DNA from: Verrucomicrobiota bacterium
Lineage (GTDB): Bacteria > Verrucomicrobiota > Verrucomicrobiia > JADLBR01
DNA length: 64,000 nt
Reading direction: 5' to 3'
NCBI GenBank assembly: GCA_029560585.1
Contig: JAKQKQ010000005.1
Coordinates: 62,001 to 126,000 of the forward strand
Under the pieces are notes generated by a model. The model did not search any database and was not told where the DNA came from. It worked only from the letters and a program-made list of their open reading frames with translations. A program made the translations under genes and the position numbers. Shown here piece after piece: positions 9,566-28,766 of this stretch. The first letter of the stretch is position 1, and each line of letters begins with the position of its first letter.

Positions 9566-10870
9566 TTATACAAGAAGTGTGTATTTGAATCTGCCCTCAA
9601 TGCAAACAGTATGCTCTATGGCGGTAGCGACAAACTGCTCACCACAGGCCACCTTCTGTAGCTTATGACGCGCCAGAGTTGCCTGCCCAGGCTTTCCGTT
9701 GCGTCCCGTCATTGTCGCTCGCTGTATCGGGTCCATGTTTAACTGCTCTATAACCGCTTGCGCGTCGTCTGGCGAACTTGCAGTGCCTGTAAAGCTAAAA
9801 CATATTGCACTATTATTTTGACTCACGTCGACAGTGAACCTCTCTCCGTTTCGGTCGGATGCGGCCAACATTACCAAGGCAGAAAGAAGCTGAGCATTTT
9901 CCGAATCGTCGTTGCCTCTGAACATCGAACGGTAATCAGTGCCTGGTGTAGGCTTAAGGCCGAGTAGCCATTCGGCCAGGCGAACGGAGATCCATCCGTG
10001 TAGTATGCCTTTCGCTGCAGCTACTGGCCAATACTTCTGAATGCCACCATTGCCGCAAGGAAGTTGCGTGCCAGGCAGCGGCAAACGACCGACCAGGTTT
10101 AGAAACATTTGGTTAAGTTTGTCAGTAATCTCTGCAGGAATCACAGCGAGATTTTGCCAGCCGTCCCCGGTTACCGAGTGCCACTCAGCGTGATCGAAGG
10201 GAGTCCGTGTTGCATCTGGACAAGGCCACGGCCCATTACGAGCCAAGAGCTCTGAAAAAATGCTCCACTTCTCTTGGAAGTCGCTATAGGGGTCAATACA
10301 CGCTCTGATTACGGCGGCGTTGCCACTGAGAATTTCTCGTATGTGTAATGGAACTGATGAAAACCCATGAGGGCGTAAAAATAGAAGCATTTTCCGCCAC
10401 CACGCTCCCACGCCCGTCTGATCGGGCCACGGTAATCGCTGAGGTGGATTTATGCCTCGATGCTGCAAATATTCCAGGGCGCCAATCGATTTTGCCGGAT
10501 CCTTGATTGTCGATATGGTGAGTAATGGTGTGCGATGCTGAATGCACACTGCCATTAGATAGCATGCGAGACGATATGCTTCATCGTTAGCAACGGCGCG
10601 GAAAAACCCGTCTCCAATGGTTCCCTCAGTCGTACCACTAAGCTTCGACACCACGGTGGTCGCAATAGTTTTCTGACGCGGCATGTATACATCTAAAAGC
10701 ACTACACCTCCCGACCCCTTTCTTGCGGCGTCCAGAAGCTCATCCGCCGATTTTAGTGCATCTTCAGAGCTTTGAAATCCGGGAGTCCAGTCTGGGCCCA
10801 ACTCCTGCAACTGCGGATCAAGCCACGAACGCTTTAGTGGATCGTCATCAATCAAGTATAGCTTTGGCAT
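9566..10870 (-). CDS. Response regulator with novel C-terminal domain
   Basis: 434 aa. The receiver domain spans about residues 1-150: LYLIDDD with D8-D10, phospho-acceptor D60 in VVLLDVYMP, and LLTIST with T118 or S120 as the switch residue. The usual Lys-Pro is replaced by LPWPD. The remaining 280 residues match no family I know; a Gly-containing end (RNGKPGQATLARHKL) is faintly like an ATP-lid region, but this is weak. The start overlaps the histidine-kinase gene by 19 bp, the classical kinase-regulator arrangement. Confidence 0.8.
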   Translation of the reverse strand: MPKLYLIDDDPLKRSWLDPQLQELGPDWTPGFQSSEDALKSADELLDAARKGSGGVVLLDVYMPRQKTIATTVVSKLSGTTEGTIGDGFFRAVANDEAYRLACYLMAVCIQHRTPLLTISTIKDPAKSIGALEYLQHRGINPPQRLPWPDQTGVGAWWRKMLLFLRPHGFSSVPLHIREILSGNAAVIRACIDPYSDFQEKWSIFSELLARNGPWPCPDATRTPFDHAEWHSVTGDGWQNLAVIPAEITDKLNQMFLNLVGRLPLPGTQLPCGNGGIQKYWPVAAAKGILHGWISVRLAEWLLGLKPTPGTDYRSMFRGNDDSENAQLLSALVMLAASDRNGERFTVDVSQNNSAICFSFTGTASSPDDAQAVIEQLNMDPIQRATMTGRNGKPGQATLARHKLQKVACGEQFVATAIEHTVCIEGRFKYTLLV

Positions 10871-13062
10871 AAAAAAGTGGATGGAAGCGGAAGAATCGAG
10901 ATGAAGCGCCCATCTGCGTCAGGCTGGAAATCTGGAGAACCCGGCATCTGTAGTGCGGCTGTTTTGCGCTCTTCGGGCGTCAGATAATGAGTGACGTAAC
11001 GTGATACGGCACCAAATGTTCCGCCCTTTATGCTGGAATACTCTGCAAATCCTTGGCTGTTTGTTGTCATTCTGCCATAATTGGTAATTTGTAATGATCT
11101 TCGGTCGGCGGCGAGAGTTATGCCGACGGCGGGCCTTTCGCTGTCTCGATGCTTAAGTATATTGCGTAATGCACATACTAGAGCGCATCCAACCATCACT
11201 TTGGTTGGGTATGCATCACTCAATGAGAACGAATCCACAGAAGCTTTTAACTTAGTCAAATCGAAAGAATGGACAGCTTCGTCCACCCTTCGACGAAATG
11301 AACTCTCAAAGAAAGGAGCTGAAGCTGTCTCCAACTCCGCAAGCTCTTGTATCTCCGCTGCTTGATGGAGCATGGCCGCTACGAAAGCGTGTATATCCGT
11401 TTCCTCGGCAAACCGGCAATCCACCTGGAGGCGGACGCTTTCAGGTGTGATTCCCTTCCCAGAGGCTCGATCCGAAGGCGAATCCGATAGAAGCAGCGTG
11501 TATAGATAACGTCGCACGATGGTTAAGACATATGACCGTTCAGACTTTCGCACCCGGCGGATGATACGGCGAGCTTCGTGGGACATCGCTTCAAGATGTT
11601 CCTCCCAGCCTTCCCTTAGTCCTGAACGACGCTGCTGTTCAAGATGCTTGAGTCCATCCCAAAACGTCTTCGCCCATGAAGTAACGCGAAGCCCATAGGA
11701 TTCAGCATCCGGTGTTTCCAATTCCGGGAGTATGCTATCAAACTTCGGAGTCAGGAGAATCGTGTTCTCGTCGTCCAGTCGAATGGACAGCCGCCATTCC
11801 GTTGCTGGAATCGGGTTTGTGCTTGAGAGCAGCATCCCATTGGAATCCGTCCAAAAAAAGCGTCGTTCCGGCACTGGAAGAGAGAACGGTGCAGCCGCTG
11901 CAATCCAACCATCAATGTGATGAAACCGCTCGATAAAGTAATCGACAGGTGTGTTTTCGGTCGCATCTACAAACCCAGCCAACTCCTCATCCATCGTATG
12001 CTCAGAAATGGAGTCTGCGAAATCGTTCAGGTTTGCACGGAGTATCTCCCGATAGAGATGAGATGAGGCGTTTACTGTTAGCTTTTCAACGAAGGCATTC
12101 CTAATATCTGGCCGATCTACTTGGATAAAGAGCCAGCCAAGAAAGGCACCTATTAATCCATTTCGCTCCCATCGGTCATAAAGAGGAAGCACAATGCCTT
12201 TGAACGACGTAGCAGCATCAGCTGCCGCTTTCGGTCGCCTAAAGAAGCGGTCACACAGCGAGAAGAACTGTTTAAGGTCGCCAGCAAGTTCGCCATAGAA
12301 ATCAGCGACCTCGACGTCAAAGTCGGATGCAGGAATCGTATGAATATCGCCGTCAACGATGTCTTCGAAATCTTCAATGCGGGAGAGATCTGTCGGAGAG
12401 GGATCACAGGCAGTGAAGCGCTTTGCTTTGATCCAAGGAGGGTCAAGATTACTCTCGTAAATGTGGAAGAACGGGAAACAGCCGGGGTTATCGTGGAGAA
12501 ATTCTGACAGTCGGCGGTCGAGAACCGATGGGGTGCCGCCTGCATATTCCAGATGTGAATATGCGTCCACTAACCGCTCAAAAGCGTCCTTAGCATTCAG
12601 CCTTTGTTCCCACGAGTGGAGGTTGTAGGCCTTTGCTGTCGGAAGCAGGTGATTGAAGACCAAGCGAAGCCTTTCGGAGGAAAATGCTGCTTTAAACTGC
12701 AAAAGGTTCGCAGCATCTCGAATCCATTCGTAGAGGCTTCTTTTCCCTGTGCCATTGAAACTGAAGCTCTCGATAAAGCTTGGGTGGAAAAACCTCGGGT
12801 ATCTTTTGGAAGTGGAACGAGGGGCGTCTTTGTCTTCAGTAATTCCATCTCGTGCAACGAAAAGCACCTGCAAATGCTCTTTATTCGCTCCGGCGGCATC
12901 GTCTGTGATGTTTGGCCCCAGAAAAGTTTCTTCCAAGTCTTTCGCAAGGCGCTTGGACCGCTCGTAGTGATTGTAAATTGCGAGGGGGCCAAAGAGCTGA
13001 GAGTCGGACGGACCAGTTGGCATTATCTCGCCATTATTCCCGATGTTGTTTGCCAAAGTCAT
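10852..13062 (-). CDS. Divergent histidine kinase-like protein
   Basis: 736 aa from the ATG at 13062, 7 bp after the permease stop; ATG 13023 is an alternative. Residues 1-480 form a large soluble sensory region of no known family with no membrane segment. EAMSHEARRI at 491-500 matches the H-box of sensor kinases (H495 phospho-acceptor). Residues 610-695 resemble a reduced HATPase_c domain: N634 in ALRNILKH (N box), ITNYG at 659-663 instead of DxGxG, and GGTFGAVSRYV at 680-690 as the G2-like box. The missing Asp in the G1 box makes ATP use uncertain. It heads the signalling part of the unit and overlaps the next regulator gene. Confidence 0.75.
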   Translation of the reverse strand: MTLANNIGNNGEIMPTGPSDSQLFGPLAIYNHYERSKRLAKDLEETFLGPNITDDAAGANKEHLQVLFVARDGITEDKDAPRSTSKRYPRFFHPSFIESFSFNGTGKRSLYEWIRDAANLLQFKAAFSSERLRLVFNHLLPTAKAYNLHSWEQRLNAKDAFERLVDAYSHLEYAGGTPSVLDRRLSEFLHDNPGCFPFFHIYESNLDPPWIKAKRFTACDPSPTDLSRIEDFEDIVDGDIHTIPASDFDVEVADFYGELAGDLKQFFSLCDRFFRRPKAAADAATSFKGIVLPLYDRWERNGLIGAFLGWLFIQVDRPDIRNAFVEKLTVNASSHLYREILRANLNDFADSISEHTMDEELAGFVDATENTPVDYFIERFHHIDGWIAAAAPFSLPVPERRFFWTDSNGMLLSSTNPIPATEWRLSIRLDDENTILLTPKFDSILPELETPDAESYGLRVTSWAKTFWDGLKHLEQQRRSGLREGWEEHLEAMSHEARRIIRRVRKSERSYVLTIVRRYLYTLLLSDSPSDRASGKGITPESVRLQVDCRFAEETDIHAFVAAMLHQAAEIQELAELETASAPFFESSFRRRVDEAVHSFDLTKLKASVDSFSLSDAYPTKVMVGCALVCALRNILKHRDSERPAVGITLAADRRSLQITNYGRMTTNSQGFAEYSSIKGGTFGAVSRYVTHYLTPEERKTAALQMPGSPDFQPDADGRFISILPLPSTFLCQSYT

Positions 13063-13069
13063 TGGCTTG

Positions 13070-13885
13070 TCAGGCACGAGAGGAGGTTGGGATGGATCGG
13101 CTCCACAAGGCCGCGAGACCAAAGGCGGCAAGGGAGAGCAGTATGACCATGATGCATGGAGCGAAGCCGAGCCACGGGGCGGCATTCAGCCGAGACAGAC
13201 CCGCGTAAAGCAGACGCCCCAGCGTAGGAGTGGGCGGTTGAGCGCCAAGGCCGAAGAAGCCCAGGCCGACATCGAGACCGATGAGTTCGGGCATCAGCAG
13301 GAGGACAGCGGTGAACGCTGGAAGGAAGGCGACGGGGAGTGTCTGACGCAGCATAATCGTGGTGGCCGGAAATCCGAAGGCACGGGCAGCCAGCACATGG
13401 CGTGCGCTACGAAGCCGGATGAACTCAGCGCGGGCCAGACGAGCGGGAGCAGCCCATGCACACAACCCAACGATGACGAATGCCCCGAAGAATCCTGGTC
13501 GCCAGACGGCTGCCGCGACCACGACCAGCAGGAAAAACGGAACCGTATGAAGAAGCGCGATAAACCAGGAGATTACACGGTCGGGCCACTGGCCGTGATA
13601 CCACCCCGCCAAGCCGCCCATGATCAAAGCGAGAGCCAGCGCGAGCACTAGCGCGAGGCTGGCGGCACCGAGGGAAAGCCCACCGGCGAGAAGCAGCCGG
13701 GCGGAGAGGGATCGCCCGAGTTCATCGCGTCCGACCCATTGCCCGGCTCCCGGAGCTTCCAATGCGGACTCCGGCTGCGGTGTGAGCGGATCGAGGGAGT
13801 GCCCAAACCAAACCAAGCCAATCGGCAGAGCCACCAGAAAGGCAATGCTGAGGCAGGCAAGGATGGCGAGACGGGAGGGGGTCAT
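13070..13885 (-). CDS. Peptide ABC transporter permease (DppC/OppC type)
   Basis: 271 aa with about six hydrophobic segments. An N-terminal helix is followed by the periplasmic stretch that in this family precedes GRDELGRSLSARLLLAGG, the conserved entry to the BPD_transp_1 domain. The coupling-helix region reads RSARHVLAARAFG. The start overlaps the first permease by 4 bp (ATGA). The protein is slightly shorter than typical DppC (about 290-300 aa). It forms the channel with its neighbour for substrate delivered by the binding protein encoded at 14827-16452. Confidence 0.9.
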   Translation of the reverse strand: MTPSRLAILACLSIAFLVALPIGLVWFGHSLDPLTPQPESALEAPGAGQWVGRDELGRSLSARLLLAGGLSLGAASLALVLALALALIMGGLAGWYHGQWPDRVISWFIALLHTVPFFLLVVVAAAVWRPGFFGAFVIVGLCAWAAPARLARAEFIRLRSARHVLAARAFGFPATTIMLRQTLPVAFLPAFTAVLLLMPELIGLDVGLGFFGLGAQPPTPTLGRLLYAGLSRLNAAPWLGFAPCIMVILLSLAAFGLAALWSRSIPTSSRA

Positions 13886-16467: not shown

Positions 16468-17661
16468 TCACGTCACGGATTCAGCCACAATCCCGACCAG
16501 TCGGGGCAGCAGGGTTCTGTGGTATTCGCCGATGATCCGGCCCACGCGAGGCGAGTCTTGGGCGGCACGCATCATGGCAGGGAAATCGAATCCATTCTCA
16601 CGGGCGGTGGCAAGGATTCGCAATGGGTAGAGCCTGGTGTCGAAGATGTCATCGACCGACAGCACGCTGCCTTCCGGGGTAATCCGGACGGAGTGGTATC
16701 CGGCCCATGGGATCGGAAAGAACTTGAACTGCATCCGGAAACCGTTCGGGAACGCGTAATCGATCCACGGCACACGGCTGCGGTCCATTTCGATCCGGTC
16801 GAGCGAAAACCAATCGGAACGGAGGAATGCGGTGAGCGCCTCCGGGCAAAGCGTATCAACCTCGACGAACACGGTGAGGGGCCGGTCGAGTTGAGCCGCG
16901 CCCAGGCCGCGAAGCTCCCGGAAGAACCGATCATGGTCTTCGGCGGAAAGCGTCAGACCGGTGTCGTTATAGGGAGCCGGGTGATAGAAACTGACGCCGA
17001 CGTGCTGGATGCCCAGCCCATTCATGTGCAGGACGGCTTCGTTGAAGCGCGGCAGATTCCGCTTCTGGGCGGTGAGGCTGACAAACGCGCGCGGCCCGAG
17101 AATCTGGGCCGCCCATTCAAGGTTGGGCCGGACGGCGGCGAATGCGCCGGGCCCTCGGATCGCGTCGTGGTCTTCGGGCAGGCCGTCCACACTGATGTCG
17201 AGGAAGGTCAGGTGGGCACCCTCGATGAGTTGGCGATGCGGGGCGATAAGGGTGCCGTTGGTGATCACGCCGATGCGCTTTTCAGGAGCGATGCGGCGGC
17301 GCAGTTCGACCAGCTTGTGAAGGAGGCCGGGGCCCTTGGTGCCGAGGAAGACCTCTTTCCCATTGAGGGAAAGCATGGTGGTATCATCAGCGAGCGCGGT
17401 CGCGAAAACGCGCTCCCATTCCGCTTCCCCCAGAGCGCGATCTGCCAGGGTCGGGACCTGCAGGTAGCAATGGCGGCAGGACAGGTTGCAGGAGTTGTTT
17501 ACCACCATGCTCACATTTACCGGGGTCGGATGAGTCCGGAGATGCGCGTCGAGACACGGCAGATCAACCGCGCCAGTCAAAAGCGAGCGGTAGAACTGGA
17601 CGTTTTCTAGATCGGGGGCGGAGCCGTTTCGGCCGCCGGCTGTTCCGGTTACGGCTGGCAT
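16468..17661 (-). CDS. Radical SAM protein within a peptide transporter operon
   Basis: 397 aa. The radical SAM cluster motif is CNLSCRHC with C58, C62 and C65, followed by normal SAM-domain blocks (GVITNGTLI, LDISVDGLPEDHD). The C-terminal part has the SPASM-like layout (RITPEGSVLSVDDIF) but without the cysteine set needed for auxiliary clusters, so only the SAM cluster is expected. The start has a good GGGAGG site and overlaps the ATPase stop by 13 bp. No precursor peptide was found beside it. Possible substrates are the peptide made at 21.5 kb, or a transported peptide; both are speculation. Confidence 0.85.
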   Translation of the reverse strand: MPAVTGTAGGRNGSAPDLENVQFYRSLLTGAVDLPCLDAHLRTHPTPVNVSMVVNNSCNLSCRHCYLQVPTLADRALGEAEWERVFATALADDTTMLSLNGKEVFLGTKGPGLLHKLVELRRRIAPEKRIGVITNGTLIAPHRQLIEGAHLTFLDISVDGLPEDHDAIRGPGAFAAVRPNLEWAAQILGPRAFVSLTAQKRNLPRFNEAVLHMNGLGIQHVGVSFYHPAPYNDTGLTLSAEDHDRFFRELRGLGAAQLDRPLTVFVEVDTLCPEALTAFLRSDWFSLDRIEMDRSRVPWIDYAFPNGFRMQFKFFPIPWAGYHSVRITPEGSVLSVDDIFDTRLYPLRILATARENGFDFPAMMRAAQDSPRVGRIIGEYHRTLLPRLVGIVAESVT

Positions 17662-18545
17662 GGTGCCTCCCTCAGTTTAGCAGATCCGGGTTTCAAATTC
17701 TCCCCCATGTTGTTGTGACGGTTCGACGAGCTGCCGGGGCAGTCTATTCGAACATCCGATGAGTAAACAAGACGTCGTGTGTAGGGATGCGTTGGCTCGT
17801 GCAATATCGTATTTGGAACACCCGTCTCGACAATCTGCCCGGCGAGCATCACGGCGACCCTGTCGCACAGCGCGGAGACCGCGCGGATATCGTGGGAGAT
17901 GAAGAGGAGTGTCATTCCGAATTCATGCCGAACCTCGGCCAGCAGCGTCAAGATCTCGCACTGCGTGGTTACATCGAGGGCACTCGTGGGTTCGTCGGCA
18001 ATCAGCAGTTTCGGGCGGCAAGCGAGCGCCATGGCGATCATCACGCGCTGACACATACCGCCGCTGAGCTGGTGCGGGTAGCAGCGGTAGCAGCGATCGG
18101 GCTCTCGGAGGTGGACGGCATCCAACAGGCGAAGCACCTCCGCCCTGGCCGCATCGCCCACAAGGTTGCGGTGCAGCTTCAGCACCCATTCGACTTGGTG
18201 CCCTACCCGATAGACTGGATTCAGCGAGGCCTGGGGATCTTGAAAGATCATGGCGAGTTCTTTGCCCCGGATTGGGCGGAGGCTTTCTTCGGAAAGACCC
18301 TGTACTTGCCGCCCTTGCCAGGAAATGCGGCCTGAGACGATACGGCCATTTTGGGGCAGCAGGCCAAGGATCGAATGCGAGAGAACGGTCTTGCCGGACC
18401 CCGACTCCCCAACCAAGCCTAGCACCTCTCCTTCACCGATCGACAAGGAGACCCCGTCAAGGGCACGGTGGGACGTGGGCTTGCCCGCGTCGAAATCGAC
18501 GGTCAATCCTTCCACTCGAAGGAGGCTGTGGTTGTCTTCGGTCAT
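17649..18545 (-). CDS. Peptide ABC transporter ATP-binding protein (DppD/OppD type)
   Basis: 298 aa from the ATG at 18545, chosen because AAGGA lies 8 bp upstream; an in-frame extension to 18659 would run through the operator and promoter. It shows Walker A GESGSGKT, Q-loop IFQDPQASLNPV, signature LSGGM, Walker B LLIADEPTSALD and H-loop FISHD, then the oligopeptide-type C-terminus (HEPTHPYTRRL). Only one ATPase is present, whereas Dpp/Opp systems usually have two, so it may work as a homodimer. The final 35 residues lack the CxxxxxC metal-binding tail often seen in the family. First gene of the 15-gene unit. Confidence 0.92.
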   Translation of the reverse strand: MTEDNHSLLRVEGLTVDFDAGKPTSHRALDGVSLSIGEGEVLGLVGESGSGKTVLSHSILGLLPQNGRIVSGRISWQGRQVQGLSEESLRPIRGKELAMIFQDPQASLNPVYRVGHQVEWVLKLHRNLVGDAARAEVLRLLDAVHLREPDRCYRCYPHQLSGGMCQRVMIAMALACRPKLLIADEPTSALDVTTQCEILTLLAEVRHEFGMTLLFISHDIRAVSALCDRVAVMLAGQIVETGVPNTILHEPTHPYTRRLVYSSDVRIDCPGSSSNRHNNMGENLKPGSAKLREAPCQP

Positions 18546-18582
18546 TTTCGGTCCTTGGATAGACCTCTTCCTCAAAATATTG

Positions 18583-18603
18583 GCGTGACGGTCCTCGTCA
18601 CGC
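18583..18603 (-). promoter_or_regulatory. Palindromic GTCACGC operator upstream of transporter operon
   Basis: A perfect inverted repeat with 8-bp arms, GCGTGACG-N5-CGTCACGC, ends 37 bp before the ATG at 18545. Its arms are the same sequence as the half-sites in the five tandem boxes of this island. It would sit just downstream of the start point of the proposed promoter, a position typical for a repressor operator. Confidence 0.6.
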
Positions 18604-18618
18604 GGAACGCCCTCGTAA

Positions 18619-18646
18619 TCTGTATTCGTAACAATCTGACTGTCAA
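18619..18646 (-). promoter_or_regulatory. Candidate promoter of the 15-gene operon
   Basis: On the minus strand a perfect TTGACA lies at 18646-18641; 16 bp later is TACAGA (18624-18619), a weak -10 match. The expected start point is near 18612, just before the palindromic operator. The rest of the interval 18647-18892 shows no coding signal I can support. Confidence 0.35.
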
Positions 18647-18892
18647 CGAGAAATAGCATGATCGCTGCTTGCCGCTGTCGGAGCGCTCGGGCTCTGGACG
18701 AGGAGCGATGGTGTCATGTGGTGGGTTCTGGGGTCCATATGCGGGTTCTACGATGGTTCTCGGGGGCCGAGAACGCCGGGTCAGCCGGAGGCAAAGTCAA
18801 AGTGGCTCAAATTTGAGTGTCAGCAAGAGGAATAGGCGGTAGATCACGGGCCGCGGTTGACTTGTCCACGACACGACAGCGTGTCACCCCAT

Positions 18893-18920
18893 GTCATGCT
18901 CACGACGCGCGCTGTCACGC
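18893..18920 (+). promoter_or_regulatory. Paired GTCACGC-type box
   Basis: GTCATGC at 18893-18899 and GTCACGC at 18914-18920, period 21 bp, with ACGACG between them. An extra GTCACCC sits at 18883. The box faces right, 11 nt before the ATG at 18932. Confidence 0.5.
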
Positions 18921-18931
18921 CGTCATGGTTG

Positions 18932-19264
18932 ATGAACCCCACGACATCAGAATGCCATCAGGCGCCCCAAGAAAAACCCCACCCGCCCATCAGGACCGAC
19001 AACCGCTTCGAGGATGGAGCGGAGGAGACGGACGACTCTGGCCGAAAGACGGTTGAGTTCCGCGAAACTTCCGAACGATCCTTGGAAGTCGAAAACCGGA
19101 TCGAGAAGCCGCGACGGAAGTGGGGCTTCTCTTACCGTCTGATAGCGGTGCGTGCCGGCGGATCGGCAACTTCGGGGGCAGTGGCCCACGGGACTGCGGC
19201 AACCCGCACCCGAGAGATCCACGCCACAAGCGCCAAGAACAGCATCGAGAAGAAACTGCACTGA
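18932..19264 (+). CDS. Small hypothetical protein
   Basis: 110 aa, ending 10 bp before the GTG of the VirD4-like gene. The frame has strong G/C preference at third codon positions over its last 80 codons, unlike the other frames, and the product is charged (Glu/Arg rich) with no membrane segment or known motif. The start is uncertain; the ATG at 18932 follows a GTCACGC box. It may be co-transcribed with the ATPase gene. Confidence 0.4.
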   Translation: MNPTTSECHQAPQEKPHPPIRTDNRFEDGAEETDDSGRKTVEFRETSERSLEVENRIEKPRRKWGFSYRLIAVRAGGSATSGAVAHGTAATRTREIHATSAKNSIEKKLH

Positions 19265-19274
19265 GGCGACCACC

Positions 19275-21503
19275 GTGAACGCACCCGAATCTCAAATCCT
19301 GTCCGTTCTTCGACCAGGGGACACGATCCGATTCGCCCATCGTCCGGACGAAGACCGGCGAATCGATGTATCCATCGAAGGGTCTCCGGCCGAGGGAGGA
19401 GACGGGTTGCTTGAGGAACGGATGAGGCTCATCCTCGGTGAGTTGCGACGCCTGGGATATCTTTTCGGAGATCGAAGGCGTCAGCGGGCGGGTGCCACGG
19501 CTCAGATTGCGCGCCGACGGTCGCATCTCGGAAACTTGCAGCGGGTCCAGATACGCCCCGTTTTGAGCGAGTTTTCTCCGGTTCAGGACGCTGGCTTTGG
19601 CTTCGGCGCTGGCGAAGCATCCCATGCCATGTCCCCCCTGCGCCTTCCGAATCTGCTGAAGCCGGATACCGGGAAGGTCTTCGCATCCCTCACCGACCTG
19701 ATCTCCGGAGTCGAGGAGATCGCGGCGTTCGAGATGGAGTTCACCCGGTTCGATCTGGGGGCCGAATTTGTAAAACCGCTGGAGGATGCTCTTCGGCTTC
19801 ATTCTATCGCGAACCAGGTCGCGGGCTCGGCGTTAGGCAAGTCCAGCCTGCCCGAAATCATGATCGCTCTTTGGCTTTCCAGACGATCCGGCTGGCGTGT
19901 AACCATCCGGGCTCTCATTGAGCCAGGTGCATCGGTCCCTCATGCCGCGCTCGAGATGGCAGGTCGCGATCTGCTCTGTTGCGAATGTGAGGTGGTGAAT
20001 TGTGCCGATGGCGGACCTCGACGGGACGAATACGACCTCTCCGGCTGCTTCCCCAGGGGGTGGCCGTTTCCAGCCATCCTGCCGACCCCAGATTCGTCGG
20101 AGTCGCTCGTTGCCCGCCGCTTGCACAATCCCAGCATTCCGAACCTGCCGAAGGACGGTTTGGTGATAGGCGCGGCGGAAGGGGTCAAGGTGCGACTCCC
20201 CATCCAATCTCGCGACCGTCACACCTACATCGTTGGTGCCACGGGAACCGGCAAGAGCACGCTCCTGTCGCGGATGATCCGTGAGGACATCAAGCGCGGG
20301 GAAGGCGTCATCTTGCTCGATCCGCACGGAGACCTCTACCGGGAGGTCAGGGACACCGTCCCACCAAAGAGACGCAAGGACCTGTTCCTGATCGACCCAT
20401 GCGAGGAACGTGGCCTCCCGGGCCTCAACATCCTGGACATCCCGCCGTCGCGATTCCGCCACCGGCATGCGGCATTCCTGGTTGGCGAGCTGTTTCGGTT
20501 TTTCGACGAGATGTGGGACATGCGCGATGCAGGTGGCCCGATCTTCGAGATGTACTTTCGCAACACGCTGCTGCTGATGTGCCTCCAGGACGCCGGACCA
20601 TCAGTCCCGCGGGAGGGCGGACCCAAAATCACCGTTTTGAAATGGGAGGGTGCGGACGAACTGTTGCGCGAGATTCTTGGGAAAACACCCGCGACAAGTC
20701 CGGCAGAGTCCAGCGTGGTCGGCGACGAAGATTATCCATTGAACTTGGGCGACTTCACCAGGGTCATGACGGACGACAAGTTTCGCAAGGCACTGCTGAG
20801 GCGATGCCCTGAGAAGTCTGTTGTCCGGTTTTGGTCCGACGTGGCGGAAAAAACGACGGGCGATCACAGGCTGGCCAACTATGTTCCATATATCGTCTCG
20901 AAGATCAACGGCTTCGTCCAGACCGGCTTCGTCGCCGACATGCTCTGCTCGCGGAAAAACGACCTCCGGATCGGGGAGCGGATCGATCGCAAGGAGATCA
21001 TCCTGGTGAATTTGAACAAAGGACTGTTGGGAGCCTACGAGAGCCGGCTTCTAGGCACGATTTTAATGATGGAGCTCTTCGCGGCCGGCCTCGGACGGAG
21101 CGCCCGGCCGAAGTCGAAACGAACGCCGGTTAATGTCTACGTGGATGAGTTTCAGAATTTCGTCTCCGACAATGTAGCCGCGATGCTCTCCGAGGCCCGA
21201 AAGTTCGGGCTGCGTTTGACGCTGGCCAACCAGACGCTCGCGCAGCTCAAGGCCAACCCCGGCAAGCAGGATGTTCTCGAGACCGTTTTGGGCAACGTCG
21301 GGAACATCGTTCTTTTCCGGTTGGGCGTTCTGGATGCCGTCAGACTCCAGATGATTCTTGCGCCGTTCTCGCCGCAAGAGATGCAGGAGTTGCCCAACTA
21401 CCACGCCATGGTGAGGCTGCAGACGCGCGAGGGGCCGATCCGGCCCATTATCATGCGGGCCGCGACACCCCAGAAATGGAAGAAGGCGCACCGCTCGCGC
21501 TAG
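19275..21503 (+). CDS. VirD4/TraG-like DNA-transfer ATPase (HerA/FtsK superfamily)
   Basis: 742 aa from a GTG start at 19275 preceded by GAGG; a longer frame from 19152 would overlap the small upstream gene. Walker A GATGTGKST lies at about 321-329 and Walker B GVILLDPHGD at 344-353. The C-terminal half contains VNVYVDEFQNF and the arginine/sensor region ARKFGLRLTLANQTLAQL, as in type IV secretion coupling proteins. The N-terminal 290 residues are soluble, with no membrane helices, so it is not a classical membrane-anchored coupling protein. No relaxase or mating-pair genes are nearby. A DNA-translocating role in transfer or defence is possible. Confidence 0.85.
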   Translation: MNAPESQILSVLRPGDTIRFAHRPDEDRRIDVSIEGSPAEGGDGLLEERMRLILGELRRLGYLFGDRRRQRAGATAQIARRRSHLGNLQRVQIRPVLSEFSPVQDAGFGFGAGEASHAMSPLRLPNLLKPDTGKVFASLTDLISGVEEIAAFEMEFTRFDLGAEFVKPLEDALRLHSIANQVAGSALGKSSLPEIMIALWLSRRSGWRVTIRALIEPGASVPHAALEMAGRDLLCCECEVVNCADGGPRRDEYDLSGCFPRGWPFPAILPTPDSSESLVARRLHNPSIPNLPKDGLVIGAAEGVKVRLPIQSRDRHTYIVGATGTGKSTLLSRMIREDIKRGEGVILLDPHGDLYREVRDTVPPKRRKDLFLIDPCEERGLPGLNILDIPPSRFRHRHAAFLVGELFRFFDEMWDMRDAGGPIFEMYFRNTLLLMCLQDAGPSVPREGGPKITVLKWEGADELLREILGKTPATSPAESSVVGDEDYPLNLGDFTRVMTDDKFRKALLRRCPEKSVVRFWSDVAEKTTGDHRLANYVPYIVSKINGFVQTGFVADMLCSRKNDLRIGERIDRKEIILVNLNKGLLGAYESRLLGTILMMELFAAGLGRSARPKSKRTPVNVYVDEFQNFVSDNVAAMLSEARKFGLRLTLANQTLAQLKANPGKQDVLETVLGNVGNIVLFRLGVLDAVRLQMILAPFSPQEMQELPNYHAMVRLQTREGPIRPIIMRAATPQKWKKAHRSR

Positions 21504-21551: not shown

Positions 21552-21767
21552 CTACTCGCTGCCCGATGCCAAGGATCGGAATGCCTTGGCGATAGCTGCT
21601 TCGCCCTCCATTCCATCATCTGGGCGGTAGTGATTTGGGCCACAATCGTCGTCGCTGCAATCCGCACACTTGCACTGGCCGGCTTGGATGTCCGGGGATT
21701 CCTTAATTCCGACGGGCGTCTCGGATCTCGCAATTCCCGTTGTCTTTAGCTGTGGTGATGTGTACAT
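21552..21767 (-). CDS. Putative RiPP precursor: lasso-type leader with Cys-rich core
   Basis: 71 aa. AAGGAGG ends 5 nt before the ATG at 21767, the strongest ribosome site in the area. The start lies inside the last 22 bases of the radical SAM gene, so the two are translationally coupled. Residues 2-17 fit YxxPxLxxxGxxxxxT exactly (Y2, P5, L7, G11, T17), the leader pattern that RRE domains recognise in lasso peptides. A core CKCADCSDDDCGPNHYRPDD (residues 32-51) has four cysteines (C32, C34, C37, C42). A further 20 residues follow (EGEAAIAKAFRSLASGSE). No lasso cyclase or leader peptidase is in the window. The precursor role is inference. Confidence 0.7.
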   Translation of the reverse strand: MYTSPQLKTTGIARSETPVGIKESPDIQAGQCKCADCSDDDCGPNHYRPDDGMEGEAAIAKAFRSLASGSE

Positions 21768-22972
21768 AAGCACCTCCTTCTCATCGCCTCCTTATCATCG
21801 CGTTCTGTTGCTTGCTGCCATCCGGGTATCATGCATTCTCCGTCATAGATCGAATAGAATAGCGGGCAGCCACCCGCACACCATTTCTGCACCGGGCAAG
21901 ACATGCACTTGGTCGATGCATGACAATTTAGCGAATCGTAAAACTTATTAATCGGCTCACTATGAATATGGTCAAAAAGACTCATGCAGTCACCGAATTC
22001 ACTATCCATCATGCCTATCGGAAATCCGTATAGACTGTTGCAGGCTATGAGACGACCTGCCGGATCAAATACTAAGCCCGACCGATGCTGTAACTGGCAG
22101 GTGGTATTAAGCTGCTTTCGCTCGATAAGGCATGCGACGAAATCCTTAGGCCAAAGACATAGTGGCAATTTCAGTGAAAAACTGATTTGGCCGCCGAAGA
22201 GCGTATGCAATGGATGATAGGCGGCCAGGATGCCCTGGGCAAATGCTCTAGGATCGCTGGCGCGAGATCCCGAAGCGGTTCTGTTGTGGAAGGCTGGGGT
22301 GCTGGGGCTGATGCCAAGGTTTCTGGCACCGCAGGCAGCCGAGAATCGTGCGGTCTCGAGTAGGTCCACCGGATCGTTGCCGCTGAATACCACGCTTGCG
22401 CTGGAATCAGGAGCGTTCAAGGCACGCCGGAGCCCTCGCGCAACCTCCTCGAAATTCGAAGTCCCCGTCGCGTCGCGGAAGCTTTTCGGATTAAATGCCT
22501 TTATGGACACACTGATTCCGGAGCATGGTTGCGCCTTATAGGCCTCCCAAAATGGGTCTTCTGAAAAGCGGACCCCATTTGTGACAAGGGTCGTACGTAC
22601 ACCCAAGTCTTTGCAAACGCGGATGAATGAAAAGAGAGGCCGCCAGAGAGTCGGCTCGCCGCCGATCAAAATGACCTTCTTCACGCCAAGGGGTGTCGCG
22701 ATCTCAAGGAGCCGCGCCGCGGTTTCTAGTGACATTTCATCCCGATGGCTGTACTGGGCGCCTCGCACGTAGCACCAGGAACATCGGAGATTGCAGGCGC
22801 GATTAACATTCAACCATATCGCCCGGAGGCGGGCGCCCTGAGTTGGATGATCGAGGTGGGCAGGATGCGAGTCAAGCGGTGACGGGCTCGATTGGCGCGC
22901 GTGTTGGTCGAGAGCCCTCATTCGGTTAAATGCTCCCGCAAGTCGTGCAACACAGTCAAGCGCTTTCAACAT
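21746..22972 (-). CDS. Radical SAM/SPASM peptide maturase
   Basis: 408 aa from the ATG at 22972, which has GGAG 5 nt upstream; ATG 22987 is an alternative. CNLRCSWC near residue 60 binds the SAM 4Fe-4S cluster. The C-terminal 140 residues carry a SPASM-type set: a Cys pair bracketing LVFDPAGRLIAC, then a GDC, NC, KCMSCPVQKWCAGGCP and GEC series, enough for auxiliary Fe-S clusters. SPASM enzymes commonly install thioether or C-C crosslinks in ribosomal peptides. No PqqD-like RRE is visible at the N-terminus. It is isolated on the minus strand between two plus-strand genes and immediately precedes the Cys-rich peptide. A/T-richer codon use suggests separate acquisition. Confidence 0.88.
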   Translation of the reverse strand: MLKALDCVARLAGAFNRMRALDQHARQSSPSPLDSHPAHLDHPTQGARLRAIWLNVNRACNLRCSWCYVRGAQYSHRDEMSLETAARLLEIATPLGVKKVILIGGEPTLWRPLFSFIRVCKDLGVRTTLVTNGVRFSEDPFWEAYKAQPCSGISVSIKAFNPKSFRDATGTSNFEEVARGLRRALNAPDSSASVVFSGNDPVDLLETARFSAACGARNLGISPSTPAFHNRTASGSRASDPRAFAQGILAAYHPLHTLFGGQISFSLKLPLCLWPKDFVACLIERKQLNTTCQLQHRSGLVFDPAGRLIACNSLYGFPIGMMDSEFGDCMSLFDHIHSEPINKFYDSLNCHASTKCMSCPVQKWCAGGCPLFYSIYDGECMIPGWQQATERDDKEAMRRRCLCTHHHS

Positions 22973-23607: not shown

Positions 23608-23895
23608 ATGATGATCCTACTCCTACTCATTTTGCTCGGCTGCTGGTGCTGGTTTGGCGCCGGTCCCCTCTGCCTTCGCTGGCCGGTGATCGTGCTGCTG
23701 GTCCTGCTCACCTCGGACCACTGGGCGAGTCCGGCAGTGGCCGCCCAGCTCGATGCGCTCGCGGGACCCCTGCTGACGCTCGGTATCATGTTTTTCGGAC
23801 TGTGGATCATCGTCCGAGGGGCCTTCGGATGGCCCAGGTATCGGCGGTACTACGACCCCTACTACCGGAGGCGCTGGCATGACCGCCACTGGTGA
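23608..23895 (+). CDS. Small membrane protein
   Basis: 95 aa. Hydrophobic segments at about residues 2-16, 22-40 and 52-70 are followed by a very basic and aromatic tail (PRYRRYYDPYYRRRWHDRHW) that should face the cytoplasm. No family recognised. Two start codons lie in tandem (23608 and 23611). It overlaps the next gene by 17 bp, so it opens the plus-strand operon that runs to 29094. Confidence 0.65.
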   Translation: MMILLLLILLGCWCWFGAGPLCLRWPVIVLLVLLTSDHWASPAVAAQLDALAGPLLTLGIMFFGLWIIVRGAFGWPRYRRYYDPYYRRRWHDRHW

Positions 23896-24796
23896 GCCAG
23901 TAACGAATCCGGGTTTCGTCCGGTGCCCGACGTGCGGACGGCGGGCGGTCGCGAAAGGTGTCTGTTCCGCGTGCGGGACCCCGACAGAAGCCCCACTGCA
24001 TCAAATTGCTGTCGTCGAAGGGGGTCCCCTGGCTACAGCCTGCGCCCAAGCCGCCCTGATTTTTCCATCTCACGGAGCCGCTTCGATTCCACTTGCGTCT
24101 GCGGATCGGTGGCCCGTCGCGCCGGCGCGGGGAGTGAAGGAATCGGGCTTGCGATGCTCCAGGAATGAGGTCCGGGGCCGTGTGCTAATAGCCCGACAGG
24201 GTCCCCCAGAGCCCATGGACTTCGACCCATGGCGTTGGTTGGCCATACCGGTATGGGGACTCATCCTGCTCATCTCGCCGGTTGTTGGCGCTATCTGGAT
24301 CTGGCAATCCTCCGGATTCGTGCCGGCGCTTGGAATCGCCGTGGGTTCAATTGTGGTTTTGCGCTTCGTCTTCTCCGACCGACTGCTTCAGAGCTGGCAT
24401 TTGACTGCCGCGCTCAACGGCCAACATGTCGTCGAGCCGATGCCGGTGACGATGGTCAGGTTGCGATCTTGGGAAGGACACGAGGTGCAACTTCGGCTCA
24501 AGGGGCACAAGGCAGGAGGAACGATCTTCGAAGGAGACCGAATTCTAGCCACGGGCACATGGAGGGGGGGTGTCCTTCGGGTGCGCCTGATCAAGTGCGA
24601 GCGGACCGGCGCGACGATCATCCCGCGACAGCCAAGCGCCAAGACCCTGGCGCTGGCGGGCCTGTGCGTGCTGCTCGCGGGTGGTGCATGGCTTAGCTTT
24701 GTCGGAGTGCCTTGGGTCATCGGCGAGATGGGGGCATTTCGCAGGTCCATCGAACCACGCGTCCACGCATTTCGGCAACAGGATCGCGTCCCATGA
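23879..24796 (+). CDS. Zinc-ribbon membrane protein
   Basis: 305 aa. An N-terminal zinc ribbon has CPTC (C16, C19) and CSAC (C29, C32). Membrane helices are likely at about 120-142, 146-165 and 258-282. Between them lies a beta-rich domain (VEPMPVTMVRLRSWEGHEVQLRLKG, given here in part) of SH3/OB-like character. The gene ends in an ATGA overlap with the HerA-like ATPase. A membrane platform for that ATPase is plausible but not shown. Confidence 0.65.
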   Translation: MTATGEPVTNPGFVRCPTCGRRAVAKGVCSACGTPTEAPLHQIAVVEGGPLATACAQAALIFPSHGAASIPLASADRWPVAPARGVKESGLRCSRNEVRGRVLIARQGPPEPMDFDPWRWLAIPVWGLILLISPVVGAIWIWQSSGFVPALGIAVGSIVVLRFVFSDRLLQSWHLTAALNGQHVVEPMPVTMVRLRSWEGHEVQLRLKGHKAGGTIFEGDRILATGTWRGGVLRVRLIKCERTGATIIPRQPSAKTLALAGLCVLLAGGAWLSFVGVPWVIGEMGAFRRSIEPRVHAFRQQDRVP

Positions 24797-27252
24797 GCCT
24801 GATACTATCCAATTCGCTGACCGAAGCCTCCGCGATCATTCGGGGTGAGATCCCTTCGCCCCACAATCCCAGCGGTTTCGAGATTCCCCGCATGAGGGTC
24901 AGTTGGCTCGCCGGCTTTGAGGCCGCCCCCGGTCACCCGACACTGGATACCGATACTGCGTGGGAATCCGTGGTCCGGGCCTGGTGGGGTTTGGGCGCGA
25001 CATGGGGCCTCGCCATAAACGGAACGACCGATGGCAAAGTCGCGTGGAACCTTGCATTGCCGGCAATCCTTCCCGCTGCAACCGAAATAATCGCGGCACA
25101 CCTCACCGGGGCCAAGCTTGGAACAACAAGGGATTTCTCCGACATCACCCGGCGGCTGAGCCGGTTACCGGTCTGCGCCGCTATGGCAGGACATCCGGCT
25201 GTTGGGAAACTGGCGAGGTTAGAGCACGCCGTCCGCTGCCTTCTGGGCCGCGAGTTCCAGTTTCTCATTCTCGCCAGGTGCGTGACGCGTCCCGAAATCG
25301 AGGAGGAGATCCGACGCCTGGCAGGCGAAGAGCAATTCGTCCGGGACGAATTCCTGGCGCGGCCCGGCCTCGAGCAGGACAATCATTCATTGGCTAGGCG
25401 CTATCTCGAACTGCTCAGGGCCGCCAGCGGCCGGGCTGCTACTGGCATGCACGAAGGTGGATGGCTGACCCGCGTCCTGCTCGCCGCCAGCAGCGGAGAC
25501 GACCTGCAGAGGGCGCAGTCCTTGCTGCACTCGGCCTATTCCAAAGGAGGGGGAGACCCCGAGCCGCTACGCTGGCAACCCGCGGACGATCGGCGCAGTC
25601 TCACGTTCGTCAGAACCGCGGAATTGGCGGCACTGACGCGGCCCCCCCGAAGCGAGATGCCCGGTTTTCTCATAGAAACCCGAGTTCTCCAGACCAATGA
25701 CAGATGCTCCTCTTCCGAAGCACCACAGTTTGGAGTGGCGGCCTCGATCCTATCGGGTGTGCCGAGCATCGCGATCGGCCAGATCATCGATGACGCCAAA
25801 AGAACGAATGAGTGGCTCGAGATCCCTGTGTCGGACCTATGCCGGCACATGCTCATCGCGGGAATGACCGGGTCGGGCAAGACGGTCTCCTGTGAGCACA
25901 TCCTGCTCGAACTCTGGAGGGAGCACCGGATCCCATGGCTGGTCATCGAGCCAGGATTAAAGACCGGCTATCGCAGGTTGCTTAACAGCGAGATCGGGGC
26001 CGATATCCAGGTCTGGTCGGTCGGTGCTCCCGGAGCCCGGCGATTGGCGCTGAATCCGATGGCTGTTCCATCTGGCGTTGGTCTCTCGGAACACACGGAC
26101 GCGCTCTTTGCAATCATTTCAGCGGCATTTGAACTTGTGCCGCCCATGCCCGAGGTATTGGCCACCGCGATCGAACGGACCTACCTGGGGCGAGGGTGGG
26201 ATCTGGCGGACGTGGCGCCTGGCGGTGATCCGCCGCGCCTGATGGACTTGGTAGACGAGATCGATCGCACCACGAGGGACCTCGGCTATGGCGGCGAGAT
26301 CACAGCCAACATCAGGGCCGGACTTCTGCTGCGCCTTCGGCGCCTTTCCGATGGCCCGCTCTCGCCGGAGTTGAATGCGTCGGCCCGGCCGAATCCCGAC
26401 TCGCTCGCGGCACGCCCAACCATCATCGAGCTTTCCGCTCTCCCAACCGCAGATTCGCAGGCGTTCGTCATGGGATTGATCGCCCTGCAGTTTCGCCATC
26501 ACTGGCGGCTGCTCGGTCAGTCGGATTCCCTTCGCCATATTACGGTCATCGAAGAGGCGCACCGCTTGCTGCGCGCGGTCCCAGAAACAGACGCAAACGC
26601 CTCGCGCAACCGCGCCGTGGAGGACGTCGCGAATATGCTGGCGGAACTTCGCGCCTTCGGTGCCGGGCTCGCGATTGTCGACCAGATGCCTTCGGCGCTC
26701 GTTCCCTCCGCGATAGCAAATACCGGGACCAAGATCCTGCATCGGCTGGATCATCCGGCCGACCGGGAGATGGCGGGCCGGGCGGCAGGACTACCCGCAG
26801 GTTCGGTTGATCTTCTCGGCACAATGCGGCCAGGGGAGGCGGTGCTTCGCAGCGACCGGCATTCACGTCCCTTCCGCTTGCGCGTGCCCAACCCATCCGT
26901 CACCTACGCAAAGGGGGCCAATCCGACGCTGGCGCCGGCGGAAACAGCCACGAAGCCATCGAATTGTCCCATCTGTGGGACGACAGGCTGTATAGCCCGC
27001 ACGCTTGGCGGGCAATCCGAACTGATTGATGCACGTCTCCTCGCCCTGCAAGGGGCACTTCGAGCCGGCGGAGAGGACGCGGCATGGGATTGGGCGATTG
27101 AGCAGCTCCGGTCCTCAAGCATCGACGGGATGTTGCCCGCAGGGCCCCTCTGTTTTCTGATTTCTTTGGCCGGTGCCGCGAACCTCTCAGAGCCCACTCT
27201 TGACCGATTGAGAACCGCATTCGGACCACGAACCCGAAATTCCATGCCATGA
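24793..27252 (+). CDS. HerA-like ATPase (DUF87/TraG-type)
   Basis: 819 aa from the ATG at 24793 (4-bp overlap with the previous gene). The N-terminal 340 residues are family-specific. The ATPase core starts with Walker A GMTGSGKT (357-364), Walker B-like WLVIEPG follows about 25 residues on, and a second acidic motif ITVIEEAHRLL lies near 588; the P-loop spacing is that of HerA/VirB4 enzymes. The C-terminus has a zinc-binding CPICGTTGC and a helical tail. Such ATPases pump DNA in conjugation, repair with NurA, or anti-phage complexes; no NurA is present here. It is the second HerA/FtsK enzyme within 6 kb. Confidence 0.85.
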   Translation: MSLILSNSLTEASAIIRGEIPSPHNPSGFEIPRMRVSWLAGFEAAPGHPTLDTDTAWESVVRAWWGLGATWGLAINGTTDGKVAWNLALPAILPAATEIIAAHLTGAKLGTTRDFSDITRRLSRLPVCAAMAGHPAVGKLARLEHAVRCLLGREFQFLILARCVTRPEIEEEIRRLAGEEQFVRDEFLARPGLEQDNHSLARRYLELLRAASGRAATGMHEGGWLTRVLLAASSGDDLQRAQSLLHSAYSKGGGDPEPLRWQPADDRRSLTFVRTAELAALTRPPRSEMPGFLIETRVLQTNDRCSSSEAPQFGVAASILSGVPSIAIGQIIDDAKRTNEWLEIPVSDLCRHMLIAGMTGSGKTVSCEHILLELWREHRIPWLVIEPGLKTGYRRLLNSEIGADIQVWSVGAPGARRLALNPMAVPSGVGLSEHTDALFAIISAAFELVPPMPEVLATAIERTYLGRGWDLADVAPGGDPPRLMDLVDEIDRTTRDLGYGGEITANIRAGLLLRLRRLSDGPLSPELNASARPNPDSLAARPTIIELSALPTADSQAFVMGLIALQFRHHWRLLGQSDSLRHITVIEEAHRLLRAVPETDANASRNRAVEDVANMLAELRAFGAGLAIVDQMPSALVPSAIANTGTKILHRLDHPADREMAGRAAGLPAGSVDLLGTMRPGEAVLRSDRHSRPFRLRVPNPSVTYAKGANPTLAPAETATKPSNCPICGTTGCIARTLGGQSELIDARLLALQGALRAGGEDAAWDWAIEQLRSSSIDGMLPAGPLCFLISLAGAANLSEPTLDRLRTAFGPRTRNSMP

Positions 27253-27857
27253 CACAGCATCGGTCCACCGAACTTCGCGACGAGACCGGCGTGCGCGCTC
27301 CCGCCAACCGCACGCTGGAAACCCTCGACGACATACCGCGCGAGATTGCGGACCGCCGGCTCCATGCGGAGTTTGGCGAGCACATCTCGCCCCAAAAGTC
27401 CGAAGCCATTCGGGATCGACCGGATCGGATCGAAGGATCAGCGGAATTTCAGGAAGCGGCTAAGAGGGCAGGCATTGGGGGCACGGGAGATGTCCTCGGG
27501 TGGTCCACCGACATCGAGTCCCCCGCCCATGTTCTGAGGCAAGATATGGCTAAGGAGATCGCGACCTTGATTCATGAGGATTTGCATAGGATGACGGATC
27601 CGATCACCCGCGCCGAAATAACCTCAACGGATTCCGGAAGTCGCCTCTACGAGGGGATCACTGAGATGTACACGGAAAAGGCGGTTAAGGGGCTTCATGG
27701 GCACAAGCCGGGCGAATGCTACGCGGACAGCATGCGTCACGCAGAAAGGGTGGAGCAATTCGTCGGAGACGCGGAATTGAGACGTTATTTCTTCAAGCAC
27801 GAACTGCCAGAGAACATCGGGAGGGCGATTGATCAACTCCGGAGGGATCAGACATAA
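27249..27857 (+). CDS. HExxH zincin-like protein
   Basis: 202 aa. IATLIHEDLHRM holds a HExxH zinc site (H109, E110, H113), and LYEGITEMYTEKAV about 22 residues later supplies E135 or E139 as third ligand, the gluzincin layout. The first 90 residues are polar and Arg-rich without motif. There is no signal peptide, so it acts in the cytoplasm or is delivered by another system. It overlaps the HerA gene by 4 bp. Peptidase or effector-toxin roles are both possible; the sequence does not decide. Confidence 0.65.
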   Translation: MTQHRSTELRDETGVRAPANRTLETLDDIPREIADRRLHAEFGEHISPQKSEAIRDRPDRIEGSAEFQEAAKRAGIGGTGDVLGWSTDIESPAHVLRQDMAKEIATLIHEDLHRMTDPITRAEITSTDSGSRLYEGITEMYTEKAVKGLHGHKPGECYADSMRHAERVEQFVGDAELRRYFFKHELPENIGRAIDQLRRDQT

Positions 27858-27886
27858 ATCTGGGGAAGGCCATCTCCGATCCCCCA

Positions 27887-28198
27887 ATGGCAAGCGACCA
27901 GAACCGAGTGAACACCGTGAGACAGCAAAGAAACAGCGACATGACTCCGCCTCGCACCCCGCAACCCACGGGGAAAGTGAGACCGCACACCACCGGTTCG
28001 CTGGAGAAATTGCGCCGCGGGATTGAGTCGTTACGCTTGCGCGGGGGACGAAAACTGACTATGGACGAGGCAATCGCGCAACTTCTCACACTCAACGATC
28101 TGCTTTGTGAGGCCGACGAAACAGGGTTGTCCCCAGAACACGTCGTTCGACAGATCCAGCAACGGTCAGCCCCCACTCCACCGGCCACTAGCCCCTGA
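27887..28198 (+). CDS. Small hypothetical protein
   Basis: 103 aa, 29 bp after the previous stop. The first 35 residues are polar and Pro/Arg-rich; residues 38-92 form a helical region (SLEKLRRGIESLRLRGG, then MDEAIAQLLTLNDLL) that could be a protein-binding or antitoxin-like module. No family recognised. The start could instead be the ATG at 27941. Confidence 0.5.
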   Translation: MASDQNRVNTVRQQRNSDMTPPRTPQPTGKVRPHTTGSLEKLRRGIESLRLRGGRKLTMDEAIAQLLTLNDLLCEADETGLSPEHVVRQIQQRSAPTPPATSP

Positions 28199-28214
28199 AG
28201 GAAGGACCAGCGAC

Positions 28215-28766
28215 ATGTACATCGAATGCCTCCAGCGCCATCTGGCAGTGTGCGCCATGCGCGACCTGCCCCAAATTGCCAAACGCGACCCGAAGTTCTG
28301 GAACGTGGTTTCGCTCTTGGGGCCCGAGGCGCCCACCCCAGCGCGACTCGGGTTTCGCGACCAGCATCGGGCGTTTTTAAACGATGTTCGAGCCACGGCT
28401 GCCGGCACCGAGATGGACTTGCGGATTGTCGACGAGAACACCATGCGGGGCATCCTGGAATTTGTGGACGAGAGACAGGGACAACCGATCCTGGTTCATT
28501 GTGTGGCCGGGATCTCAAGAAGCCCCGCTGCGGCTTTGGTGTTCATCCTTCGCGGCCTGGTGGCCGCCGGTGCCGAGAGCCCGGCAGAAATGGGCATCGA
28601 CACCCTGTTGCAGATCAGGCCTCAGGCGCGCCCCAACCCGCTGGTGCTTCGGGCCGGCCTGCTTTGTTTTCTCCCCCAAACCGAAGCGGACGGCCTGCTA
28701 TCGGAGGTCATGGCCGATCCGCGCATGACCCGCGACAAGCGCAGAGAGGGATTTGACGAAGAATGA
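28215..28766 (+). CDS. Protein tyrosine / dual-specificity phosphatase
   Basis: 183 aa. The signature loop HCVAGISRS (95-103) contains nucleophile C96 and R102, preceded by the PILV strand typical of cysteine phosphatases. The overall length fits a small dual-specificity enzyme. The start at 28215 has GGA-type sequence (GAAGGACC) upstream; a frame from 28107 would overlap the previous gene. It is 16 bp from its upstream neighbour. Substrate unknown; a phosphatase beside ATPases and near a kinase cascade suggests signalling control of the island. Confidence 0.85.
   Translation: MYIECLQRHLAVCAMRDLPQIAKRDPKFWNVVSLLGPEAPTPARLGFRDQHRAFLNDVRATAAGTEMDLRIVDENTMRGILEFVDERQGQPILVHCVAGISRSPAAALVFILRGLVAAGAESPAEMGIDTLLQIRPQARPNPLVLRAGLLCFLPQTEADGLLSEVMADPRMTRDKRREGFDEE

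Follow-up and report, generated by a model that had tools for sequence, protein, structure and literature searches.

A putative radical SAM/SPASM maturase and precursor peptide with a lasso-type leader motif in a Verrucomicrobiota bacterium

Background

A small open reading frame with a leader of the type known from lasso peptides is joined to a radical SAM/SPASM gene in the genome of a Verrucomicrobiota bacterium. This raises the question of whether the two genes form a RiPP-like pair and, if they do, whether a lasso-type leader in the absence of lasso enzymes implies a new product class, as had been proposed in an earlier note on this DNA. The window referred to throughout is the whole stretch of DNA that was analysed, 64,000 nucleotides of contig JAKQKQ010000005.1.

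The enzyme gene and the overlapping peptide gene

The features of the two genes are as follows (window coordinates).

21746..22972, minus strand: radical SAM/SPASM enzyme, 408 aa from M6 (PF04055, E=1.1e-24; motifs; GGAG 5 nt before M6)
22772..22795, minus strand: CX3CX2C radical SAM cluster motif CNLRCSWC, residues 65-72 (motif)
21833..22099, minus strand: SPASM cysteines C297 to C385, CX13GX4C - CX2CX5CX3C - C (motif; alignment with plasmid enzymes)
21773..21779, minus strand: AAGGAGG, Shine-Dalgarno sequence for the peptide, located within the enzyme gene (sequence)
21552..21767, minus strand: putative precursor peptide, 71 aa, MYTSPQLKTTGIARSETPVGIKESPDIQAGQCKCADCSDDDCGPNHYRPDDGMEGEAAIAKAFRSLASGSE (open reading frame; no family match and no relative)
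21717..21764, minus strand: lasso-type leader motif YxxPxLxxxGxxxxxT, residues 2-17 of the peptide (sequence)
21642..21674, minus strand: four-Cys segment CKCADCSDDDC, residues 32-42 of the peptide, the presumed modification site (sequence)

The reading frame of the enzyme extends back to 22987 (413 aa). Its second in-frame ATG, M6 at 22972, was preferred as the start because a GGAG lies 5 nt upstream, and the gene end given as 22972 in the earlier note was thereby retained as the better start. The identification as a SPASM radical SAM enzyme was borne out by the PF04055 match together with the CX3CX2C motif and the SPASM cysteines. The pattern applied for the latter was CX9-15GX4C - CX2CX5CX3C - C, and a complete set of seven was found: CX13GX4C (C297-C316), CX2CX5CX3C (C361, C364, C370 and C374) and C385. 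C316, C361, C364, C370, C374 and C385 were invariant in comparison with six plasmid SPASM enzymes, which are actinobacterial and share 21-26% identity with the enzyme.

No curated family cut-off in NCBIfam was reached by the enzyme, for which the MoaA models scored best. The top peptide-maturase model was that of PapB (NF047865), with 66.4 bits against a cut-off of 340, and the scores for StsB (53 bits, cut-off 625) and PqqE (41 bits, cut-off 381) were lower still; these family-model scores mostly reflect the generic radical SAM core. Among the three top structure alignments shown, only that with 5wgg spans both the radical SAM and the SPASM parts, in one stretch from residue 34 to 376 of the query and 79 to 418 of the chain, and the same is true among the best stretches of the chains listed. 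We take 5wgg to be CteB, the thioether-forming SCIFF maturase, the N-terminal part of which is presumably an RRE. As chain residue 79 would follow that part, the alignment starts where the RRE would end. A single-sequence AlphaFold model had a pLDDT of 37 and was unusable.

The peptide gene shares 22 nt with the 3' end of the radical SAM gene, and its ATG lies 5 nt from the AAGGAGG, an arrangement that agrees with the description in the earlier note of a peptide that starts in the last 22 bases of the enzyme gene. The fit of residues 2-17 to YxxPxLxxxGxxxxxT, also claimed there, holds at every fixed position (Y2, P5, L7, G11 and T17), and the four cysteines of the proposed core are present as C32, C34, C37 and C42. 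A tail of 29 residues follows the Cys segment, which is located in the middle of the peptide. Profile searches with the NCBIfam and Pfam models gave no match of the peptide to any family or precursor model, so that the search with precursor HMMs that had been suggested for the 71-aa peptide turned out negative. No match was found in Rfam.

Significance of the leader motif

The occurrence of the motif by chance was assessed with 1e6 shuffles of residues 2-31 of the peptide. The full five-position motif was recovered at any offset in 2.6e-5 of the shuffles and starting at position 2 in 2e-6, figures that are generous because the motif was picked after the sequence had been seen. The short core [YW]xxPx[LIVFAY] alone was present in 2.1% of the shuffles. 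Among the 419 starts in the window that are preceded by a Shine-Dalgarno sequence, 15 had the loose core and one, that of the peptide, had the full motif. The short YxxPxL-type core consequently carries little weight by itself. The single full-motif open reading frame compares with about 0.01 expected in the window, a value that is uncorrected for the many leader motifs that a reader could have recognised.

At the DNA level, a pattern of GGAG plus YxxPxLxxxG had 15 matches in the whole genome versus 46 in a reversed control and hence was not enriched; as judged by eye, the match of the peptide was alone among the 15 in having a well-placed in-frame ATG. A pattern combining the leader with CxCxxC gave six matches in 388 genomes, one of which was the peptide under study, versus four in the control. 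The view that the lasso-type leader of the coupled peptide is a non-random pattern is supported for the full motif by the shuffling result at any offset. The case rests on the combination of features within one open reading frame that is joined to the SPASM gene.

Relatives of the pair

No relative of the enzyme was found in samples of 388 genomes from the phylum, 384 from the class and 141 closer genomes (including the sole genome of the same genus), where the matches were at the level of generic radical SAM proteins or MoaA (59 bits or less). No relative of the peptide was detected in the genome samples, plasmids, phages, viral contigs or genome contigs. The scans of genome contigs and viral contigs yielded nothing for the pair, and plasmids and phages gave only matches of about 22-37% identity. 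Since the phylum, class and closer samples overlap, the genome collection is incomplete and the contig scans detect close relatives only, these searches show rarity and not uniqueness. The tblastn matches of the peptide (E of about 0.002-0.1) were not next to radical SAM genes at any of the loci fetched. Accordingly, the pairing of a SPASM gene with an overlapping peptide gene was seen in one genome, with no homologues for comparison, and a single pair without known relatives is a lead, not a discovery.

SPASM enzymes act on non-peptides too, and the nearest full-length plasmid relatives of the enzyme lie next to nucleotidyltransferase and gltX genes and have no annotated precursor peptide. 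It is possible, albeit rather doubtful, that the substrate is a small molecule or another compound and that the small open reading frame encodes a short protein unrelated to the enzyme (a metal-binding one, for instance) or is a chance one with a fortuitous Shine-Dalgarno sequence. The non-peptide look of these plasmid clusters, the lack of any peptide homologue found and the frequency of the short leader core in shuffled sequences would all agree with such an explanation. A chance open reading frame does not readily account for the 22-nt overlap, the good spacing of the Shine-Dalgarno sequence, the five-position leader match and the Cys cluster being united in one SPASM-attached reading frame.

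Recognition elements and the search for lasso genes elsewhere in the genome

An RRE that is fused to the enzyme or encoded in the cluster is common for radical SAM RiPPs, but not universal. The PqqD domain had no match in the enzyme or the peptide at E<=1, a search that divergent RREs could escape, and the three PF05402 loci of the genome are on three contigs other than that of the window. The statement that no RRE is visible was therefore upheld, both for a fused domain and for the contig. No protease, exporter or RRE was found in the cassette itself.

The lasso-type PqqD/RRE proteins considered here are located as follows.

L039:1294-1887 and L040:1324-1752, both minus strand: lasso-type PqqD/RRE proteins with a C-terminal tail (YERPVFEKFTDMRELLLLDPIHELDEMGWP and a relative)

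The best matches of both proteins were lasso PqqD chaperone models, with scores under the family cut-offs. The L039 protein adjoins an HprK-related gene and the L040 protein a similar open reading frame, and their YxxP-like C-terminal tails carry a YERPVF or FGTPVM motif. The two loci may encode a system, related to phosphorylated RiPPs, in which recognition element and substrate are fused. One of the two proteins might read the leader of the 71-aa peptide, the enzyme then acting in trans on the RRE-bound peptide. This would be a sub-case of the precursor/maturase explanation given below, and the presence of three PF05402 loci, two of them closest to lasso chaperone models and set beside HprK-related or similar genes, speaks for it. 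We consider it unlikely, as these RREs lie on other contigs, score under the family cut-offs and are fused to what looks like a partner motif of their own.

A further locus, L041:1159-3071 (plus strand), has a gene for an RRE-like 185-aa protein that overlaps a SPASM radical SAM gene. The SPASM enzyme of this locus scored above 100 bits with the nif11, PapB and SCIFF maturase models, and the locus is another candidate RiPP locus of the same genome.

The reading of the pair as a lasso system was rejected. The genome, which is 95.7% complete, had no match to the Transglut_core3 lasso peptidase at E<=0.01, in keeping with the absence of a lasso peptidase noted earlier. No lasso cyclase is encoded beside the gene either, and the Asn_synthase matches in the genome are proteins of 600-700 aa on other contigs. 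A lasso precursor with its maturation genes elsewhere would fit the leader, including the penultimate Thr, since a cut after P18 would put T17 at position -2 and make D26 residue 8, a permissible distance for the ring. Residue 1 would then be Val, the adjacent gene encodes a SPASM enzyme and the peptidase family is missing from the genome, which leaves this explanation largely refuted and very improbable.

Proposed function and comparison with known systems

The pair is probably a RiPP-like precursor/maturase cassette of the radical SAM type with a putative Cys-core substrate. The enzyme and the peptide would be encoded on one message, with translation of the peptide coupled through the observed overlap and strong Shine-Dalgarno sequence. 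The N-terminal third of the peptide would serve as a leader for its delivery to the SPASM enzyme, either directly or via an RRE encoded elsewhere; the leader may also not be read at all. The enzyme, with SAM, the CX3CX2C cluster and two auxiliary Fe-S clusters, might then abstract a hydrogen, and the Cys thiols of CKCADCSDDDC might be joined to nearby residues, most simply through thioethers like those of ranthipeptides or sactipeptides. As neither leader removal nor export is encoded next to the pair, both functions would be supplied from elsewhere. The production of the peptide, its role as the substrate and the chemistry are all predictions from the gene arrangement and the motifs. A more specific version, in which a stand-alone SPASM enzyme reads the leader directly without any RRE, the Cys residues in the middle of the peptide are crosslinked and the C-terminal tail is kept, would constitute a RiPP class of its own and seems distinctly improbable to us.

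PqqA is linked at Glu-Tyr, not at Cys. The PQQ pathway (PqqA/PqqD/PqqE) resembles the pair in having a SPASM enzyme and a small precursor whose motif for RRE binding is lasso-like (PMC13381572), but it includes the RRE PqqD, whereas no RRE was found on the contig of the pair. In the StsC sactipeptide system of the Actinomycetota, a W/Y/LxxP-type leader is used together with a discrete RRE, StsC (PMC12710340). The maturase StsB is a radical SAM/SPASM enzyme by its NCBIfam name, and the YxxP-type leader is shared with the peptide studied here, but this system has its own RRE and its maturase model falls far short of its cut-off with our enzyme. A YxxPx[VL] leader is also found in the linear polyphosphorylated peptides (LPPs), a family of RiPPs other than lasso peptides; they differ in relying on a kinase, an RRE and a signal-peptidase-like enzyme, and the paper that describes them makes no mention of 'radical SAM' (PMC13381572).

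The ranthipeptide pair PapA/PapB is similar in its SPASM maturase and in its Cys/Asp-rich core, and PapB was the best peptide-maturase model for the enzyme. PapB forms links between Cys and Asp or Glu across 0-6 residues, and binding of its leader by an RRE is presumed (PMC9413430). The core of the 71-aa peptide offers Cys-Asp pairs of the kind that PapB joins, with two CX3D pairs that involve two of the four cysteines, but 41% of the shuffles did as well. The bond type is thus a guess, because the count of CX3D pairs is at chance level; six such pairs are present in PapA, and the 66 bits of the model remain well under the cut-off of 340. With 5wgg, taken to be the SCIFF maturase CteB, the likeness is the alignment across the radical SAM and SPASM parts, and the differences are the start of that alignment at chain residue 79 and the fact that the peptide fits no precursor model. 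Lasso peptides share the leader motif YxxPxLxxxGxxxxxT and differ in their peptidase, which the studied genome lacks, and in the RRE and cyclase, neither of which is beside the gene.

Leaders of the YxxP type outside lasso peptides are therefore documented for PQQ, the StsC system and the LPPs (PMC13381572, PMC12710340), two of which (PQQ and the StsC system) use SPASM enzymes. Given these precedents, the proposal to take a lasso-type leader in the absence of lasso enzymes as the sign of a new product class was not sustained, and a shared leader with a different product is already known in principle. The literature search returned these YxxP precedents and nothing on exactly such a pair. As SPASM enzymes with YxxP leaders outside lasso peptides are already on record, the pair is best filed as a new and as yet unassigned candidate of a known general kind, chiefly notable for the missing RRE. 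If it is real, the radical SAM RiPPs would gain one further product line from a poorly sampled lineage, and the pair would allow a test of whether a lasso-type leader is read by a radical SAM enzyme with no local RRE or via RREs borrowed from other loci.

Genomic context and possible origin

The pair interrupts a block of genes that the relative G405 has without the pair.

16468-21503 and 23879-28766 of the window, and L053: seven-gene block, conserved in G405 (homology)

All seven neighbouring genes have homologues close together in G405, in a different order, and the SPASM enzyme and the peptide are missing there. The block encodes a Zn-ribbon protein, a HerA-like ATPase, a 202-aa protein, a phosphatase-like protein, a TraD-like ATPase, an oligopeptide-ABC ATPase and a second radical SAM enzyme, which is without SPASM cysteines and is 75% identical in G405. 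The GC3 of the enzyme gene (0.58) and the peptide gene (0.61) is lower than that of the genes directly around them (0.67-0.75), and other genes of the window are also low. The two values are consistent with a common origin. The absence of the pair from the G405 block and its lower GC3 relative to the adjacent genes would fit a later acquisition of the two genes together; a search for terminal repeats bordering a mobile unit found none.

At 9566-13185 of the window, two genes with no Pfam match have a GC3 of 0.50, much of the window being at 0.7-0.85. The ATPases of the conserved block gave weak HerA and mads_8 matches in PADLOC.
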